From positions 1-64,000 of the forward strand of contig JAJSAL010000140.1 of the NCBI GenBank assembly GCA_024274705.1: a stretch of DNA of 64,000 nt, given 5' to 3'. This document shows, in pieces, positions 31,503-39,584 of the stretch. The notes below the pieces were generated by a model, which worked only from the letters and a program-made list of their open reading frames with translations, did not search any database and was not told the DNA's origin. The DNA is from Spirochaetota bacterium (lineage in GTDB: Bacteria > Spirochaetota > Spirochaetia > SPDA01 > JAJSAL01). Numbering within the stretch: the first letter of the stretch is position 1; each line of letters starts with the position of its first letter. The position numbers were made by a program, and so were the translations under genes.

Positions 31503-31605
31503 AAGGGGACAAGCCGCACTGAGAACTTATCATTTCTGCCAACTGAACAATAAGTTGAGGCTCTACCGGAGGGGCCGCTGCCCGCACTGTGCCTTCCCGG
31601 ACTAA
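31486..31605 (+). CDS. possible 39-residue zinc-ribbon-like small protein
   Basis: A short ORF not in the track starts at ATG 31486 inside the end of the ABM gene, in another frame, and ends at TAA 31603-31605. The product is very basic and contains HFCQLNNKLRLYRRGRCPHC, with cysteines at residues 18, 32 and 35 spaced like half of a zinc ribbon. It has no Shine-Dalgarno of its own, so it would depend on coupling to the ABM gene. It overlaps the convergent glyA stop by 4 bp. It could be chance; the CPHC motif and otherwise empty position make it worth recording. Confidence 0.35.
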   Translation: MKTSGRRGQAALRTYHFCQLNNKLRLYRRGRCPHCAFPD

Positions 31606-33119
31606 AAGAACGTATTTTTCAGATACTCCAGGTCCAATTCGGGGTATACAGGGAACCGGGAAAGAAGATTTTTTACACGGGCACTCTCACTCTTTTTCAC
31701 TCCCGGATCTATGGTGTAATGCGTTCTGCTGTTCTCCCCCGCCCTTCTGCCTTCTGATATAACAGACGGTTTTGTCGCATCAAGGACGTTTTTTATTACA
31801 CCGGCTATTTCTACCATCTCTTCTTTCCCCATGCCGAGAGTGGTCACCGCCGGTGTTCCCATCCGCAGTCCGCTGGTGTACCAGGCTCCGTTAGGATCGA
31901 AAGGGAGGGAATTCCTATTCAGTGTAATATGGCATTCCCGTACAGCGGATTCGGCTTGTCTGCCGGTAAGTCCGAAATCCCTTACATCGATGAGAAAGAG
32001 ATGGTTGTCCGTTCCGCCTGTGGTGAGTGACATACCTCGATCCATACAGGCCTCTGCCAGTGCCCGGGCATTTTCAACGATTTTCCAGGTATATGTTTTG
32101 AATTCCGGTGTACTTGCCTCCTGTAATGCAACCGCTTTTGCGGCCATCATGTGCGGGAGGGGTCCACCGATAACCAGGGGACACCCTTTGTTTACAGCAT
32201 CTACGAATTCCCGGGTGCACAAAATGAGTCCGCCCCGGGGTCCTTTCAAGGTTTTATGTGTGGTACTGGTGACGATATGTGCAAAAGGTACTGGATTGTG
32301 ATCACCGCTGAATACTCCTCCTGCAACAAGTCCTCCGAAATGGGCCATGTCCACCATGAATACGGCATCTACTTTATCCGCTATTTCACGCATGCGTCTG
32401 AAATTAATGTGCCGGGGGTAGGCACTATAGCCTGCCAGCAGGATAAGGGGTTTTATCTCCAATGCACGTTTTTCGATCTCATCATAATCGAGCACACCTG
32501 TTTCTCTATTCACCCCATAGGAGTAGGCATCGAACATCTTGGCCGGCACATTATGTCTGTACCCGTGAGTCAGATGCCCTCCTGAGTAATACCCCATACC
32601 CAGGAGTTTCTGGTTTCCAGTCTCTTTCCGAATTGCATTCCACTGTTCATGGGTCAAATCCGATGGATTGGCAATACCTAACTTTTCGAGAAGAGGAGTT
32701 TCGATCCTTTTATTCAAAACCGCCCAGTATGCAATAAGATTGGCATCTGCACCGCTGTGAGGCTGTACATACGCATGTTCACATCCGAAGACCCTGCATG
32801 CCTGCTCAGCAGCATAACTCTCGATATCATCCACATTATCGCAGCCCGCATAGAATCTGTGATGGGGAACCCCTTCGGCGTATTTATCGGTAAAAAGGTT
32901 CCCCATGGCAACCTGGGAAGAAATAGAGGAATAATTCTCACTGGCGATTAATTTCAGATTGTTCCGCTGGTCCTCAAGCTCATTGATGATCGACCGGGCG
33001 ACTTCCGGTGATCCCTGAGAGACCATGGTTAGATTCCCCAGGTACGCCATAAACTCATGATTCAGATCATCACTGGATGTATGATTATTCAAGTAATCCA
33101 AGAGTGGACTGTGTTTCAC
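31602..33119 (-). CDS. glyA: serine hydroxymethyltransferase
   Basis: The 505-residue PLP enzyme interconverts serine and glycine while charging tetrahydrofolate. The PLP-lysine motif is TSTTHKTLKGPRGG; other marks are IASENYSS, YAEGVPHHRFYAGC and FMVDMAHFGGLVAGG. It is about 80 residues longer than the usual 415-430, through an N-terminal extension and an insert near LGIANPSDLTHEQWNAIRKE. This long form is also found in other spirochaetes and chlamydiae, as I recall. The start is GTG 33119, 8 nt after AAGGAG. The 79-bp repeat array lies immediately upstream of its promoter. Confidence 0.95.
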   Translation of the reverse strand: MKHSPLLDYLNNHTSSDDLNHEFMAYLGNLTMVSQGSPEVARSIINELEDQRNNLKLIASENYSSISSQVAMGNLFTDKYAEGVPHHRFYAGCDNVDDIESYAAEQACRVFGCEHAYVQPHSGADANLIAYWAVLNKRIETPLLEKLGIANPSDLTHEQWNAIRKETGNQKLLGMGYYSGGHLTHGYRHNVPAKMFDAYSYGVNRETGVLDYDEIEKRALEIKPLILLAGYSAYPRHINFRRMREIADKVDAVFMVDMAHFGGLVAGGVFSGDHNPVPFAHIVTSTTHKTLKGPRGGLILCTREFVDAVNKGCPLVIGGPLPHMMAAKAVALQEASTPEFKTYTWKIVENARALAEACMDRGMSLTTGGTDNHLFLIDVRDFGLTGRQAESAVRECHITLNRNSLPFDPNGAWYTSGLRMGTPAVTTLGMGKEEMVEIAGVIKNVLDATKPSVISEGRRAGENSRTHYTIDPGVKKSESARVKNLLSRFPVYPELDLEYLKNTFF

Positions 33120-33163: not shown

Positions 33164-33193
33164 AATATAATCATGAAACTAGTTGTAGATCAA
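33164..33193 (-). promoter_or_regulatory. promoter of glyA, abutting the repeat array
   Basis: The minus strand reads TTGATC, 18 bp, TATATT. The -35 hexamer overlaps the first bases of the repeat array, so the array is upstream DNA rather than mRNA leader if this is the promoter used. Confidence 0.55.
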
Positions 33194-33524
33194 GGTTGCT
33201 AAGCAGCAGGAACCGTGGGGGCAGCTTAACACAACCTTGCCTCCACATAATCTATGGGTAAAAGGGCCGGTCAACTTTGCTAAGTAGCACAGCCGAGGGG
33301 GTAGCCCAACGCAAAGTAACCTCCACAAGCAGGGTAGTAAAATGGCCGGTCAACTTTGCTAAGTAGCACAGCCGAGGGGGTAGCCCAACGCAAAGTAGCC
33401 TCCACAAGCAGGGTAGTAAAATGGCCGGTCAACTTTGCTAAGTAGCACAGCCGAGGGGGTAGCCCAACGCAAAGTAGCCTCCACAAGCAGGGTAGTAAAA
33501 TGGCCGGTCAAGGTTGCTAAGCAG
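33192..33524. repeat. tandem array of 79-bp structured repeats upstream of glyA
   Basis: Repeat starts are at 33192, 33273, 33352, 33431 and 33510: one degenerate 81-bp unit, three nearly identical 79-bp units and a 15-bp partial. Each full unit has an inverted repeat around a loop of about 31 nt: ACTTTGC/GCAAAGT in units 2-4 and CAAGGTTG/CAACCTTG in unit 1. Two paired positions differ between the types on both arms, keeping the pairing. No spacers and no consistent reading frame exist (79 is not a multiple of 3). The last partial unit contains the stop codon of the upstream ATPase gene. The region 33120-33516 holds only this array and the glyA promoter. Confidence 0.95.
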
Positions 33525-34812
33525 AAGGAGCATTAATTTGAAGCTGATTGGTGAATTCGTGAAGCCTGGTTAATCGTTGTGCTATCAGCCGGGCAAGGAG
33601 TATCCCGTAATGAGGATTGTTTTTAATCATATCGAGGAATTGATCTTTTGATACTTTGATAAGAACACACTTCGATCCGGCTTTAACAGTTGCAGATCTT
33701 CGATTGCTCAAAAGAAAAGACATTTCACCTAGAAAAACATCTTTTGGTGTGAGAACAGATATCTGCTTTCCTTTGGAAATGATGTTGAGCTCTCCGGAAA
33801 CAATATAATACAGGTAGTTTGATTCTTCTCCTTCACGAAAAATCACCTGATTTTTCCGGAATGTGGCTTCCTCGTGACCTTCAAATACCTTAGGAATCAA
33901 ATTACTCTCATTCTTCATGTGCTGAATCTTAAAAGATACTTCGTTTCCTTTATCGTTGTACCACAAGGAATCTGTGTATATCTCTGTCATCTTTATACCA
34001 TGCCCGTGAAGAGCGGTGGCACCGCCATCCGTTGACCAGTCGGTATATGTCCGCCAATCAAACCCGTTTCCTTCGTCACGGATGGTAAAAGTGGAATCCT
34101 CCTGCCTGATAGTGTACGAAAAATAAACTTTTTTCTTTTTCACCGATGGATTCCTGTTCTTTTTCCGTATCAGCTCGATGCTGTCACCGCCGTTTTCAAG
34201 CCACGCTGTCTTTTCTTCAAAACTGATATTACAGTTGCCGTGCTCTACCGCATTCATAAGCATTTCGAATAGTGCCACATGGAGACGTTCACGCTGATCA
34301 TGATTTATGTAATTAGAGTTAAACAGATAATTCGTTACCAGGTTTGCATATGTCCTTACTTCAAATGGGTCGTTATCCATTGTCAATGAACCCGTGATCT
34401 GGGCCAGCAACTTCCGCTGCAGGTCCCGGTGAAAGAGGATGTGGCTGTTATCTTTCACGATTTTCAGAACCCGGGGCAGACCGGAACTGAATTCATTTTC
34501 ATGGATAAGACTGATGATGTTCATCGTGTGAATTCTCTGGAGCAGTTCCCTTTCGTTTTCCTTGTGAAGACCGATAATTCCACCTGCATGGAGCCACGTA
34601 TCTTTCTTTATCGTTGAAACAATGGAATTTACTTCCCTTCCCGGAATAGTGAAATCGATGATATTGAATTCCGGAAGTTCAAATTTCAGGTATTGAAGAA
34701 ATGATTCAGGATTATCAAAATAGATTGGATTGAAATCATGTTTAAATTTATAGACACATTCTTCTACCAGCGTGTTTACGGTGTCTTTTTTTGAAAAAAC
34801 CGGTATTTTCAT
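33517..34812 (-). CDS. histidine-kinase-like ATPase fused to a cyclic-nucleotide-binding domain
   Basis: The 431-residue protein has three parts. Residues 1-110 form a strand-helix domain that may be a degenerate receiver (no clear acceptor aspartate). Residues about 170-310 are an RsbW/SpoIIAB-type ATPase with the N box LHVALFEMLMNAVEHGN and IRDEGNGFDWRT. Residues about 315-431 are a cNMP-binding barrel (NQVIFREGEESNYLYYIVSGEL, FLGEMSFLLSNRRSATVKA). It may be a switch kinase controlled by a cyclic nucleotide. ATG 34812 with AGGA upstream is preferred to TTG 34878. Its stop lies inside the repeat array. Confidence 0.75.
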   Translation of the reverse strand: MKIPVFSKKDTVNTLVEECVYKFKHDFNPIYFDNPESFLQYLKFELPEFNIIDFTIPGREVNSIVSTIKKDTWLHAGGIIGLHKENERELLQRIHTMNIISLIHENEFSSGLPRVLKIVKDNSHILFHRDLQRKLLAQITGSLTMDNDPFEVRTYANLVTNYLFNSNYINHDQRERLHVALFEMLMNAVEHGNCNISFEEKTAWLENGGDSIELIRKKNRNPSVKKKKVYFSYTIRQEDSTFTIRDEGNGFDWRTYTDWSTDGGATALHGHGIKMTEIYTDSLWYNDKGNEVSFKIQHMKNESNLIPKVFEGHEEATFRKNQVIFREGEESNYLYYIVSGELNIISKGKQISVLTPKDVFLGEMSFLLSNRRSATVKAGSKCVLIKVSKDQFLDMIKNNPHYGILLARLIAQRLTRLHEFTNQLQINAPSA

Positions 34813-34895
34813 GAACAATTTCCTGAATACTGTAATACTATCGGCTGGATAACCGGATAATCTGTAGTTTCCGTCCAAGATGGCACGATACAGAC

Positions 34896-37088: not shown

Positions 37089-39584
37089 ATGGCCACCGAT
37101 ATGCAAGACGAATTTGGACAAGAACTGAAGGAAAAAAATCCAATGGATTCGAACACAACTGCAGATTCAGAACTCGAAGAATACGGAGTCTGGGTAAAAG
37201 CCGGCCCGGAAGACCTGGTAGAAGCTGAGTCTGACGGCGACGAATTCAGCCTTCAGGATCTCGAAGTCGACAACTCAATGGAAGAACCAGTTTTAAGTGA
37301 AGAAGAAGAAGAACTCCTGGGTGATCTGGAAGGGGACACCTTTTCAGCCGAAGAAGATGTGTTTCCTGCTGAAGATGTACCTGATATTGAAGATTCTGTA
37401 ACCGAAGACCTCTCTACAGATTCGGCCGTCGATGGTCTCGTCGAACCTGAGGAACCTGAGGAACCTGAGGAACCTGAGGAACCTGAGGAACCTGAGGATA
37501 GATCAGAAAAGGCTGAACTCAACATTGATATCGACAGCGAACTTGATGAAATTGGTTCAGCAGAAGAAGCTGAGGAAAAGATTACCGAAGACCTTTCTGA
37601 TTTTGAGTTCGATCTCGAAGATGAACCTGTTTCTGCGGAAGCTGAAAGTCCTGATGCTGAAAAATCCTCCGAGGAGGAACTCATTGAAATACCTCTCGAT
37701 TTTGCCGATGATGTGGAAGAGTCTGAACTTGAAGATGTGGAAGAGTCTGAACTTGAAGATGTGGAAGAAGAGGAATTTGATCTCTCGTTTCAATCTGAAA
37801 CGGAAAAAAACCTGGAAAATATTGAAGAAATCGGTGACGATGTCACATTTGACGATAATACTCTACCCTCTGCTGAAGATAATCTTGACAATATCAACCT
37901 TGATGAAATCCAGCAATCCGACTTCGGTGAAGAGCTTCCGGAACTGGAACTCGACGAGGGAGGGGTTTTAGGTGACCAACAAACCGTTTCTTCCGAGGAT
38001 GCCGGATCCACTTCTATTCTTCTTAAGATCGAGCAGGAACTCTTAGCGATTAAGAATGAACTCGCCTCGTTGAAAAGGGAACTTACAACTTTGCGGATTT
38101 CCGAACGCGAAGAACCTTCTGTTCCCCAAGCTGATGAAACCGGCGGCTTTTTTGATGAGGAAGAAGATGAAACGATAGCTCTTACAGGCGATGAACTCGA
38201 TAACATCCTTAACACAGCTGAATTCACTGATGAAGTCGGTGAGGCAACGGATATTGCAGATGAAGATCTCACTCCTGAGGAAGGGATCGAAGAAGCTGAT
38301 GAAACCTTGACCGGTGACGAACTCAACAACATTCTGAACACTGCTGATTTCACAGAACAGGAGGGTGAGGACACCCTTTCCGTTGAAGATGAGGGGGAAC
38401 AGCCTGTAGAATCCCTGGATGAAGATCAAATATCCCTTAAAGAGGATATCATTTCTTTAGATGAAACACCCGATAGTTTCGATCTGGTACCACCGGTTGA
38501 GGATCTTACGATCGAGACACCCCTGGAGTCCGAACAAGAATCCTCTTCTGAAGTTATTACTGAAATGGATGAAGTATCTGTTCCTGTTGCCGGTAATGAA
38601 TTAATAGATGAAATAGAAGTAGACATCCCTTCAAGTGGTGCGAGAGTACCTGATGCCGACGAAACTATTTTTGCTGAAGAATCTGTTGATGACCTGGACC
38701 TCATTTCAGAACACGAAGAATCCCTACTCGACGAAGAAACCGTCGGGAAAGAAACGTTGGAAGATCTTTCTGAACTCCCGGAATTGCCATCGGAAGAAAT
38801 GAGTCATGATCATGACGAACTTGCTTTGGAAGAACCTCTGGATGAAGAAATCGGTCTTGAAGAAATCAGTCCTGAAGAAGAAACGGAGCCTGAAGAACTC
38901 TCCCTGGAAACTGATGAACTGACCCTCGATGAGGTACCTGTCCCGGAGGAGAGTGCTCTCGAAACGGAAGAACCGGCCATAGAGGATGAACCGGTTATAG
39001 AAGAGATTTCTCTGGAACCGGATGATCTTGCCCTTGAGGAAGCAGCCGCTGACCTGCCGGCCGAGGACCTTTCCACGGAAGAACTGACCCTCGATGAGGT
39101 ACCTGTCCCGGAGGAAAGTGCTCTCGAAACGGAAGAACCGGCCATAGAGGATGAACCGGTTATAGAAGAGATTTCTCTGGAACCGGATGATCTTGCCCTT
39201 GAGGAAGCAGCCGCTGACCTGCCGGCTGAGGACCTTTCCACGGAAGAACTGACCCTCGATGAGGCTCCTGCAGTTGAAGAGGATTCTGAACTTCCTGAAA
39301 TAGAAGAATCAGCAGCCGAAGACCTTATTGAAATGGATGAAGCTCCATTAGTGGAAAATGAGGTCGAAGAGGTAAGTGAAGAAGAGCTGCCGCAGGTTGA
39401 ACCTTCCGGGGAAGAAAGCTTCACCGAAATTCCGGATACTCTTAAATCTGAACTGAAATCAGTCCTTACTTATATGGACCAGCTTCTCGAAGCATTACCG
39501 GAAGACAAGATCCAGGAATTTGCCCGGTCAGAACATTTTGAAGTGTATAAAAAATTGTTCGAAGAACTGGAGTTGAACGTATAA
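37089..39584 (+). CDS. hyperacidic, repeat-rich cytoplasmic protein
   Basis: The 831-residue protein is dominated by E, D, L, S and P and is probably disordered and strongly negative. It has no signal peptide. Repeats are nested: a six-fold GAACCTGAG run (EEP) at 37443-37496, a 24-bp duplication near 37715, two LTGDELNNILNTA-type copies, and a 55-residue tandem duplication at 38916-39245. A short coiled coil (LLKIEQELLAIKNELASLKREL) lies near residue 310. The only folded-looking end is the C-terminal 50 residues (LKSELKSVLTYMDQLLEALPEDKIQEFA). Its stop overlaps the ATG of the next gene (TAATG), so the two are coupled. The function is unknown. Serine-rich minus-strand ORFs here are shadows. 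Confidence 0.85.
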   Translation: MATDMQDEFGQELKEKNPMDSNTTADSELEEYGVWVKAGPEDLVEAESDGDEFSLQDLEVDNSMEEPVLSEEEEELLGDLEGDTFSAEEDVFPAEDVPDIEDSVTEDLSTDSAVDGLVEPEEPEEPEEPEEPEEPEDRSEKAELNIDIDSELDEIGSAEEAEEKITEDLSDFEFDLEDEPVSAEAESPDAEKSSEEELIEIPLDFADDVEESELEDVEESELEDVEEEEFDLSFQSETEKNLENIEEIGDDVTFDDNTLPSAEDNLDNINLDEIQQSDFGEELPELELDEGGVLGDQQTVSSEDAGSTSILLKIEQELLAIKNELASLKRELTTLRISEREEPSVPQADETGGFFDEEEDETIALTGDELDNILNTAEFTDEVGEATDIADEDLTPEEGIEEADETLTGDELNNILNTADFTEQEGEDTLSVEDEGEQPVESLDEDQISLKEDIISLDETPDSFDLVPPVEDLTIETPLESEQESSSEVITEMDEVSVPVAGNELIDEIEVDIPSSGARVPDADETIFAEESVDDLDLISEHEESLLDEETVGKETLEDLSELPELPSEEMSHDHDELALEEPLDEEIGLEEISPEEETEPEELSLETDELTLDEVPVPEESALETEEPAIEDEPVIEEISLEPDDLALEEAAADLPAEDLSTEELTLDEVPVPEESALETEEPAIEDEPVIEEISLEPDDLALEEAAADLPAEDLSTEELTLDEAPAVEEDSELPEIEESAAEDLIEMDEAPLVENEVEEVSEEELPQVEPSGEESFTEIPDTLKSELKSVLTYMDQLLEALPEDKIQEFARSEHFEVYKKLFEELELNV
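37443..37496 (+). repeat. six perfect copies of a 9-bp repeat
   Basis: GAACCTGAG is repeated six times and encodes (EPE)n. The unit is a multiple of three, so copy number changes would lengthen or shorten the protein without breaking the frame. Confidence 0.95.
38916..39245 (+). repeat. 165-bp tandem duplication inside the acidic gene
   Basis: The segment starting GAACTGACCCTCGATGAG recurs at 38916, 39081 and (partial) 39246, exactly 165 bp apart. The two full copies differ at only a couple of positions, so the duplication is recent or kept uniform by recombination. Confidence 0.95.

Follow-up and report, generated by a model that had tools for sequence, protein, structure and literature searches.

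Hairpin-forming repeats dispersed at predicted −35 boxes of a spirochaete genome: a possible class of mobile DNA

A structured repeat array upstream of glyA

The analyzed window is a 64,000-nucleotide stretch of contig JAJSAL010000140.1 from a Spirochaetota bacterium. Within it, a tandem array separates glyA from its upstream neighbor. Read in register, this array consists of one 81-bp unit, three 79-bp units and a 23-bp partial unit, arranged as follows:

31602–33119 (minus strand): glyA, encoding serine hydroxymethyltransferase, the gene behind the promoter and outside the element (Pfam SHMT, 397 bits)
33164–33169 (minus strand): predicted glyA −10 hexamer TATATT, with an 18-nt spacer (promoter scan)
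33188–33193 (minus strand): predicted glyA −35 hexamer TTGATC, common to the element end (promoter scan)
33189–33269 (minus strand, that of the adjacent promoter): unit 1, 81 bp, type A, promoter-proximal (in-register layout)
33193–33198 (unstranded): unit 1 stem arm AGGTTG, partner of 33232–33237 (covariation)
33232–33237 (unstranded): unit 1 stem arm CAACCT (covariation)
33270–33348 (minus strand): unit 2, 79 bp, type B, arms ACTTTG/CAAAGT (repeat call and in-register layout)
33349–33427 (minus strand): unit 3, 79 bp, type B (repeat call and in-register layout)
33428–33506 (minus strand): unit 4, 79 bp, type B (repeat call and in-register layout)
33507–33529 (minus strand): partial type-A unit, 23 bp, with a ragged distal end (in-register layout)
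33517–34878 (minus strand): upstream open reading frame (ORF) with cNMP-binding and HATPase_c_2 domains, a neighbor outside the element (ORF and domain search)

Tandem Repeats Finder reported a period of 79 bp with 3.3 copies and 97% matches across 33258–33521 and, together with the in-register reading, confirmed the array with its 81-bp and partial units, as described in the original prediction. The left end lies on the predicted glyA −35 box, and the right end runs over the stop codon of the upstream ORF, with the partial unit covering the last 13 nt of that ORF, stop codon (33517) included. The arms read AAGGTTG/CAACCTT in unit 1 and AACTTTG/CAAAGTA in units 2–4, so that the reported exchange of GG:CC for CT:AG is exact on both arms. 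Nothing else in the window resembles the array, again as predicted. The other tandem repeats, with periods of 9 bp (37443–37498), 24 bp (37710–37768) and 165 bp (38916–39264), are apparently coding and unrelated to the unit family. The next copy on the same contig is located just beyond the window (C110:70387).

A dispersed unit family with a covarying stem

Searching the array against its own genome, a fragmented assembly of 4.59 Mb in 198 contigs with an estimated contamination of 7.7%, returned 29 places, spread over more than 20 contigs. When 27 distinct units were combined into a covariance model, it gave 55 matches at about 30 places, including new divergent or partial copies, with unit 1 of the glyA array as the best match in the genome. 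The glyA repeats belong to a dispersed family of ~80-bp hairpin-forming units and are not specific to glyA. In register, each unit follows one plan: GTCAA, a variable arm, CTAAGYAG, a conserved loop of ~33 nt, the second arm, GCCTCCACA, a short hairpin, AAAAGGGCCG and GTCAA. On the promoter-sense strand, it runs from CGGCC to TTGAC, and TTGAC is present at intact distal ends as well as at every internal junction of the arrays.

Promoters carry from one to four or more units, although these numbers are uncertain because many arrays end contigs. Two loci with identical flanks (L022 and L029, on G000:C92 and C197) hold two units and one recombinant-looking unit, respectively; they represent strain variants or an assembly artefact, and the pair points to a unit number that differs within the population. 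Four arrays (L012, L013, L014 and L031) close with a truncated unit that matches their own first unit exactly or almost exactly; in three of them a different unit type intervenes. Simple insertion does not account for this pattern. About ten loci have an intact or nearly intact distal end; in the others it is truncated. Having one precise and one ragged end, and possibly a structured transcript, the units recall a SINE-like retroelement, one copied from a structured RNA whose 3' end is fixed and whose 5' end is ragged; we regard this origin as extremely unlikely, as a search for reverse-transcriptase domains in the assembly returned none and several distal ends are intact at TTGAC.

Covariation provided the evidence for a folded form. 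The stem comprises six pairs, and 92.6% of its cells are paired across 27 distinct units, a value slightly biased towards pairing by the omission from the alignment of L011 unit 2 and L029 unit 1, the two units with mismatched arms, which resemble products of recombination between unit types and could stem from chimeric assembly. Double-changed stem cells numbered 37, compared to 9.1 ± 2.3 in shuffles, with none of 500 shuffles reaching 37; changes on both sides occurred in five of the six pairs, and the signal was lost once partners were shifted by one to three columns. Arm variants among the arrays include AGGTTG/CAACCT, ACTTTG/CAAAGT, ACCAGG/CCTGGT, ACATGT/ACATGT, AGATTT/AAATCT and AGAATG/CATTCT. 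In the same line, a mutual-information scan placed the pairs of this stem among the strongest, and one copy (L095) has lost the whole loop but kept a hairpin. These data support the selection on a folded single strand that had been proposed from the glyA array, and the arm changes in other copies largely preserve pairing. Folding energies of the array units were, in turn, unremarkable (z from −1.2 to +0.6); the case for structure therefore rests on covariation among the copies.

The second, short hairpin was more stable than shuffled sequences, and the minus strand was the more stable one in 18 of 30 cases. An inner stem, TAAGC/GCTTA, was 79% paired, showing no double changes within alignment A1 and one compensatory pair in L094, while the columns of a candidate H-type pseudoknot (GRGG/CCTC) hardly vary. 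Two conserved AGYAG-like loop motifs at A1 columns 16 and 34, mutually unable to pair, change together, mostly as both C or both T. Rfam 15 covariance models did not match the window units (E up to 10) or 17 further loci (E up to 5), and an Rfam riboswitch or ribozyme was rejected on these grounds.

Position at predicted promoters

On the gene-sense strand, the promoter-side end of the element is TTGAC or TTGAT, at the −35 position, in 24 of 24 readable loci, all promoters being predicted from sequence. A −10-like hexamer follows at a distance of 16–18 nt at 19 of the 24 loci, with a sharp mode at 17. Such a hexamer accompanies 11% of other TTGAC/T occurrences in the window and 21% of the intergenic ones, resulting in binomial p values of ~1e-14 and ~1e-9, respectively. 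Selection against promoter-breaking insertions could partly explain the −35 placement and may thereby exaggerate the apparent targeting. The consensus −35 box is TTGACA; the base after TTGAC/T is A at 15 of 24 promoter ends and C inside arrays. Adjacent genes or tRNAs mostly start 14–77 nt from the element end.

Such a fixed position bears directly on the idea of a plain local minisatellite generated by replication slippage. Near-identical tandem 79-bp units and array-specific variants recurring within one array would suit it; yet the unit occurs at about 30 distant places in the genome, always starting with the same base on a −35-like box, and its arms covary. We thus consider this explanation, which the original prediction had weighed against itself, very improbable, even if slippage probably shapes unit number.

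Genes downstream of the element were identified by Pfam as glyA, hom, nadA, rplM and phoH; others we take, from their translations, to be metG, hisD, proS, a CtpA-like protease and a purine nucleoside phosphorylase, and further loci precede tRNAs. A search for a common regulon among these targets found none; they are unrelated housekeeping genes and tRNAs. This leaves hardly any credence for a glycine- or folate-linked regulatory RNA of glyA, as originally suggested: the array is structured and adjoins glyA, but copies stand beside tRNAs and unrelated genes, the element ends at the −35 box and thus lies upstream of the glyA transcript, and Rfam offered no match.

Among relatives, we searched 98 genomes by DNA, and 395 genomes of the class and 393 of the phylum by covariance model under strict filters. 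No unit copies were found except in G006, a single metagenome-assembled genome (MAG; Spirochaetales RS_13_41) that carries degenerate ones. The model search that had been called for across spirochaetes, run under these strict filters, recovered the family at some 30 places in its own genome, and elsewhere in degenerate form in this MAG only. The G006 copies (L085, L086 and L092) are degenerate kin of the unit's distal half and lie upstream of three duplicated genes; one of the downstream regions is presumably Rhs-like. Phages, plasmids, viral contigs and other genome contigs contained no similar DNA apart from that same MAG.

The corresponding promoters in relatives, all belonging to other families, lack the element. 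In 10 of 12 of them, rplM orthologues are preceded by TTGACA 64–95 nt before the start codon; this distance is 79 nt both in the genome studied here and in G001, a member of the same order with unrelated upstream DNA. Similarly, glyA of G002 has TTGAAA-17-TATGAT and no element where our genome has TTGAT and the array. The promoters therefore appear to be older than the element, which would have joined existing −35 boxes.

These comparisons also bear on a regulatory DNA module, that is an upstream activating or insulating cruciform, or a protein-binding array, kept beside the −35 box for its effect on transcription and spread by duplication. Position and orientation are fixed at the box, tRNA, ribosomal-protein and amino-acid genes are among the targets, and the loop sequence is conserved. 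However, the targets form no clear regulon, relatives run the same promoters without the element, copies per promoter vary from one to four or more, and both arms change jointly, unlike in a double-strand protein site. We consider such a module unlikely. Of the three readings initially offered, a mobile satellite came nearest; the glycine/folate RNA fell away, and joint arm swaps would be unexpected for the conserved double-strand sites of a protein-binding array. The units represent a natural case of a sequence held at a fixed distance upstream of many promoters.

A candidate hairpin mobile element and its possible enzymes

The best reading, which we hold to be reasonably probable, is that the units are non-autonomous mobile elements that move as single-strand hairpins and integrate at TTGA^C/T within −35 boxes, regenerating the box. 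We infer both active movement and the cut site: the folded single strand would be the intermediate, which a recombinase or transposase would recognize and insert at TTGA^C/T in a −35 box. As the element itself ends in TTGA, its insertion would complete the −35 box again, and the promoter would survive. Repeated insertion, or recombination between units, could then build tandem arrays at the box, while the distal end of the array would decay. At 4 of 24 promoter ends the box ends in T, and at 31 of 31 internal junctions in C (hand count, p ~0.03); this weakly suggests an exchange point between TTGA and C/T. Element ends show no inverted repeats, and no variable target duplication was seen; together with the fixed pentamer, they would fit insertion of a strand or circle, as in ISDra2, or site-specific recombination.

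It is conceivable, if somewhat less probable than otherwise, that these elements constitute a new class of hairpin mobile DNA whose attachment site is the −35 box and which builds up as tandem copies at housekeeping and tRNA promoters while leaving them functional. As a rule, mobile repeats of bacteria stay out of regulatory sequence. If the proposal holds, a −35 box used as landing site and returned intact would be a harmless way to colonize essential promoters, with a parallel in yeast retrotransposons, which sit beside tRNA genes. Through stems that vary freely yet stay paired, the roughly 30 natural copies provide testable rules for what the putative recombinase reads. No relevant work on insertion at TTGACA boxes emerged from a literature search.

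Among known systems, ISDra2 of the IS200/IS605 family inserts 3' of TTGAT and carries hairpins at both ends (PMC2806898). The units share with it a fixed pentanucleotide (TTGAT in ISDra2, TTGAC/T in the units), no sign of a variable target duplication, and perhaps subterminal secondary structures at both ends; in the units, hairpin 1 is strongly supported and hairpin 2 exceeds shuffled sequences in stability. In contrast to this family, the units are 80 bp long and in tandem, their sites are promoter −35 boxes and the stem nearly touches the terminal pentamer; moreover, neither tnpB nor a tnpA of the IS200/IS605 type is linked to them, no autonomous copy shares the unit ends, the genome search for a TnpB domain returned none, and the two Y1 transposase genes are RAYT-like and without units. 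REPs, which measure 20–40 bp, carry GTAG or CGTC as a tag and are mostly found downstream of genes (PMC3733652), resemble the units as short, dispersed intergenic hairpins in a genome with a RAYT-like Y1 transposase. The units, however, are ~80 bp long and positioned upstream, at the −35 box. REP/REPIN membership was rejected, since the hairpin foot bears no GTAG/CGTC tag and the RAYT loci contain no units.

Pneumococcal BOX elements are small repeats interspersed in intergenic DNA, built of tandem modules whose number varies and predicted to form stem-loops; they have distinct A, B and C modules and terminal inverted repeats, and were proposed to be moved by an insertion sequence (PMC3049150). 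Compared by description only, BOX and the units share the small interspersed intergenic repeats, the variable tandem modules and the stem-loops, and, on the same descriptive footing, BOX differs by having no fixed −35-box position. A MITE moved by a DDE transposase was rejected, since the ends do not form inverted repeats and one and the same pentamer recurs at every copy.

An integron-like origin would make the units gene-less attC-like sites, moved as circles into secondary sites by an integron-type tyrosine recombinase. To our knowledge, integrons are little known in spirochaetes outside Treponema. Within the spirochaete Treponema itself, they do occur (PMC3607928). Like attC, the units combine a folded single-strand site with free variation of the stem sequence and tandem insertion; the exchange point apparently falls within the shared pentamer, and the genome holds integron-integrase-like recombinases and a decayed integrase fragment. 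On the other hand, the units are without cassette genes and dispersed over more than 20 contigs rather than gathered in one array, and the boundary is GTCAAG, not GTTRRRY. We judge this origin to be quite improbable. attC membership itself was rejected, the unit boundary (G/A)TCAAG/C departing from the R' core GTTRRRY. Taken together, IS200/IS605, REP, attC and MITE membership is in each case contradicted by at least one tested feature, and the element may work like IS200/IS605 or like attC.

Candidate enzymes for the proposed hairpin mobility are encoded in the genome: RAYT-like Y1 transposases, Xer-like and integron-integrase-like tyrosine recombinases, and a decayed integron integrase fragment. 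The covariance model placed no unit on the contigs of the intact tyrosine recombinases, and no candidate enzyme gene adjoins a unit. The decayed integrase fragment lies ~3.3 kb from the nadA array, possibly by chance. The integron-integrase-like fragment scored 69.7 bits with TIGR02249 against a cut-off of 265, and two related recombinases also remained below the integron cut-off. Broken contig-end fragments like integron integrase occur at L054 (G000:C29:96063–96200) and perhaps at L052 (C3:28320–28514). Finally, one intact and one truncated RAYT-like Y1 transposase are located at L045 (C24) and L046 (C97), and near both lies the motif CCTCCGTCCC, which may be these genes' own REP.
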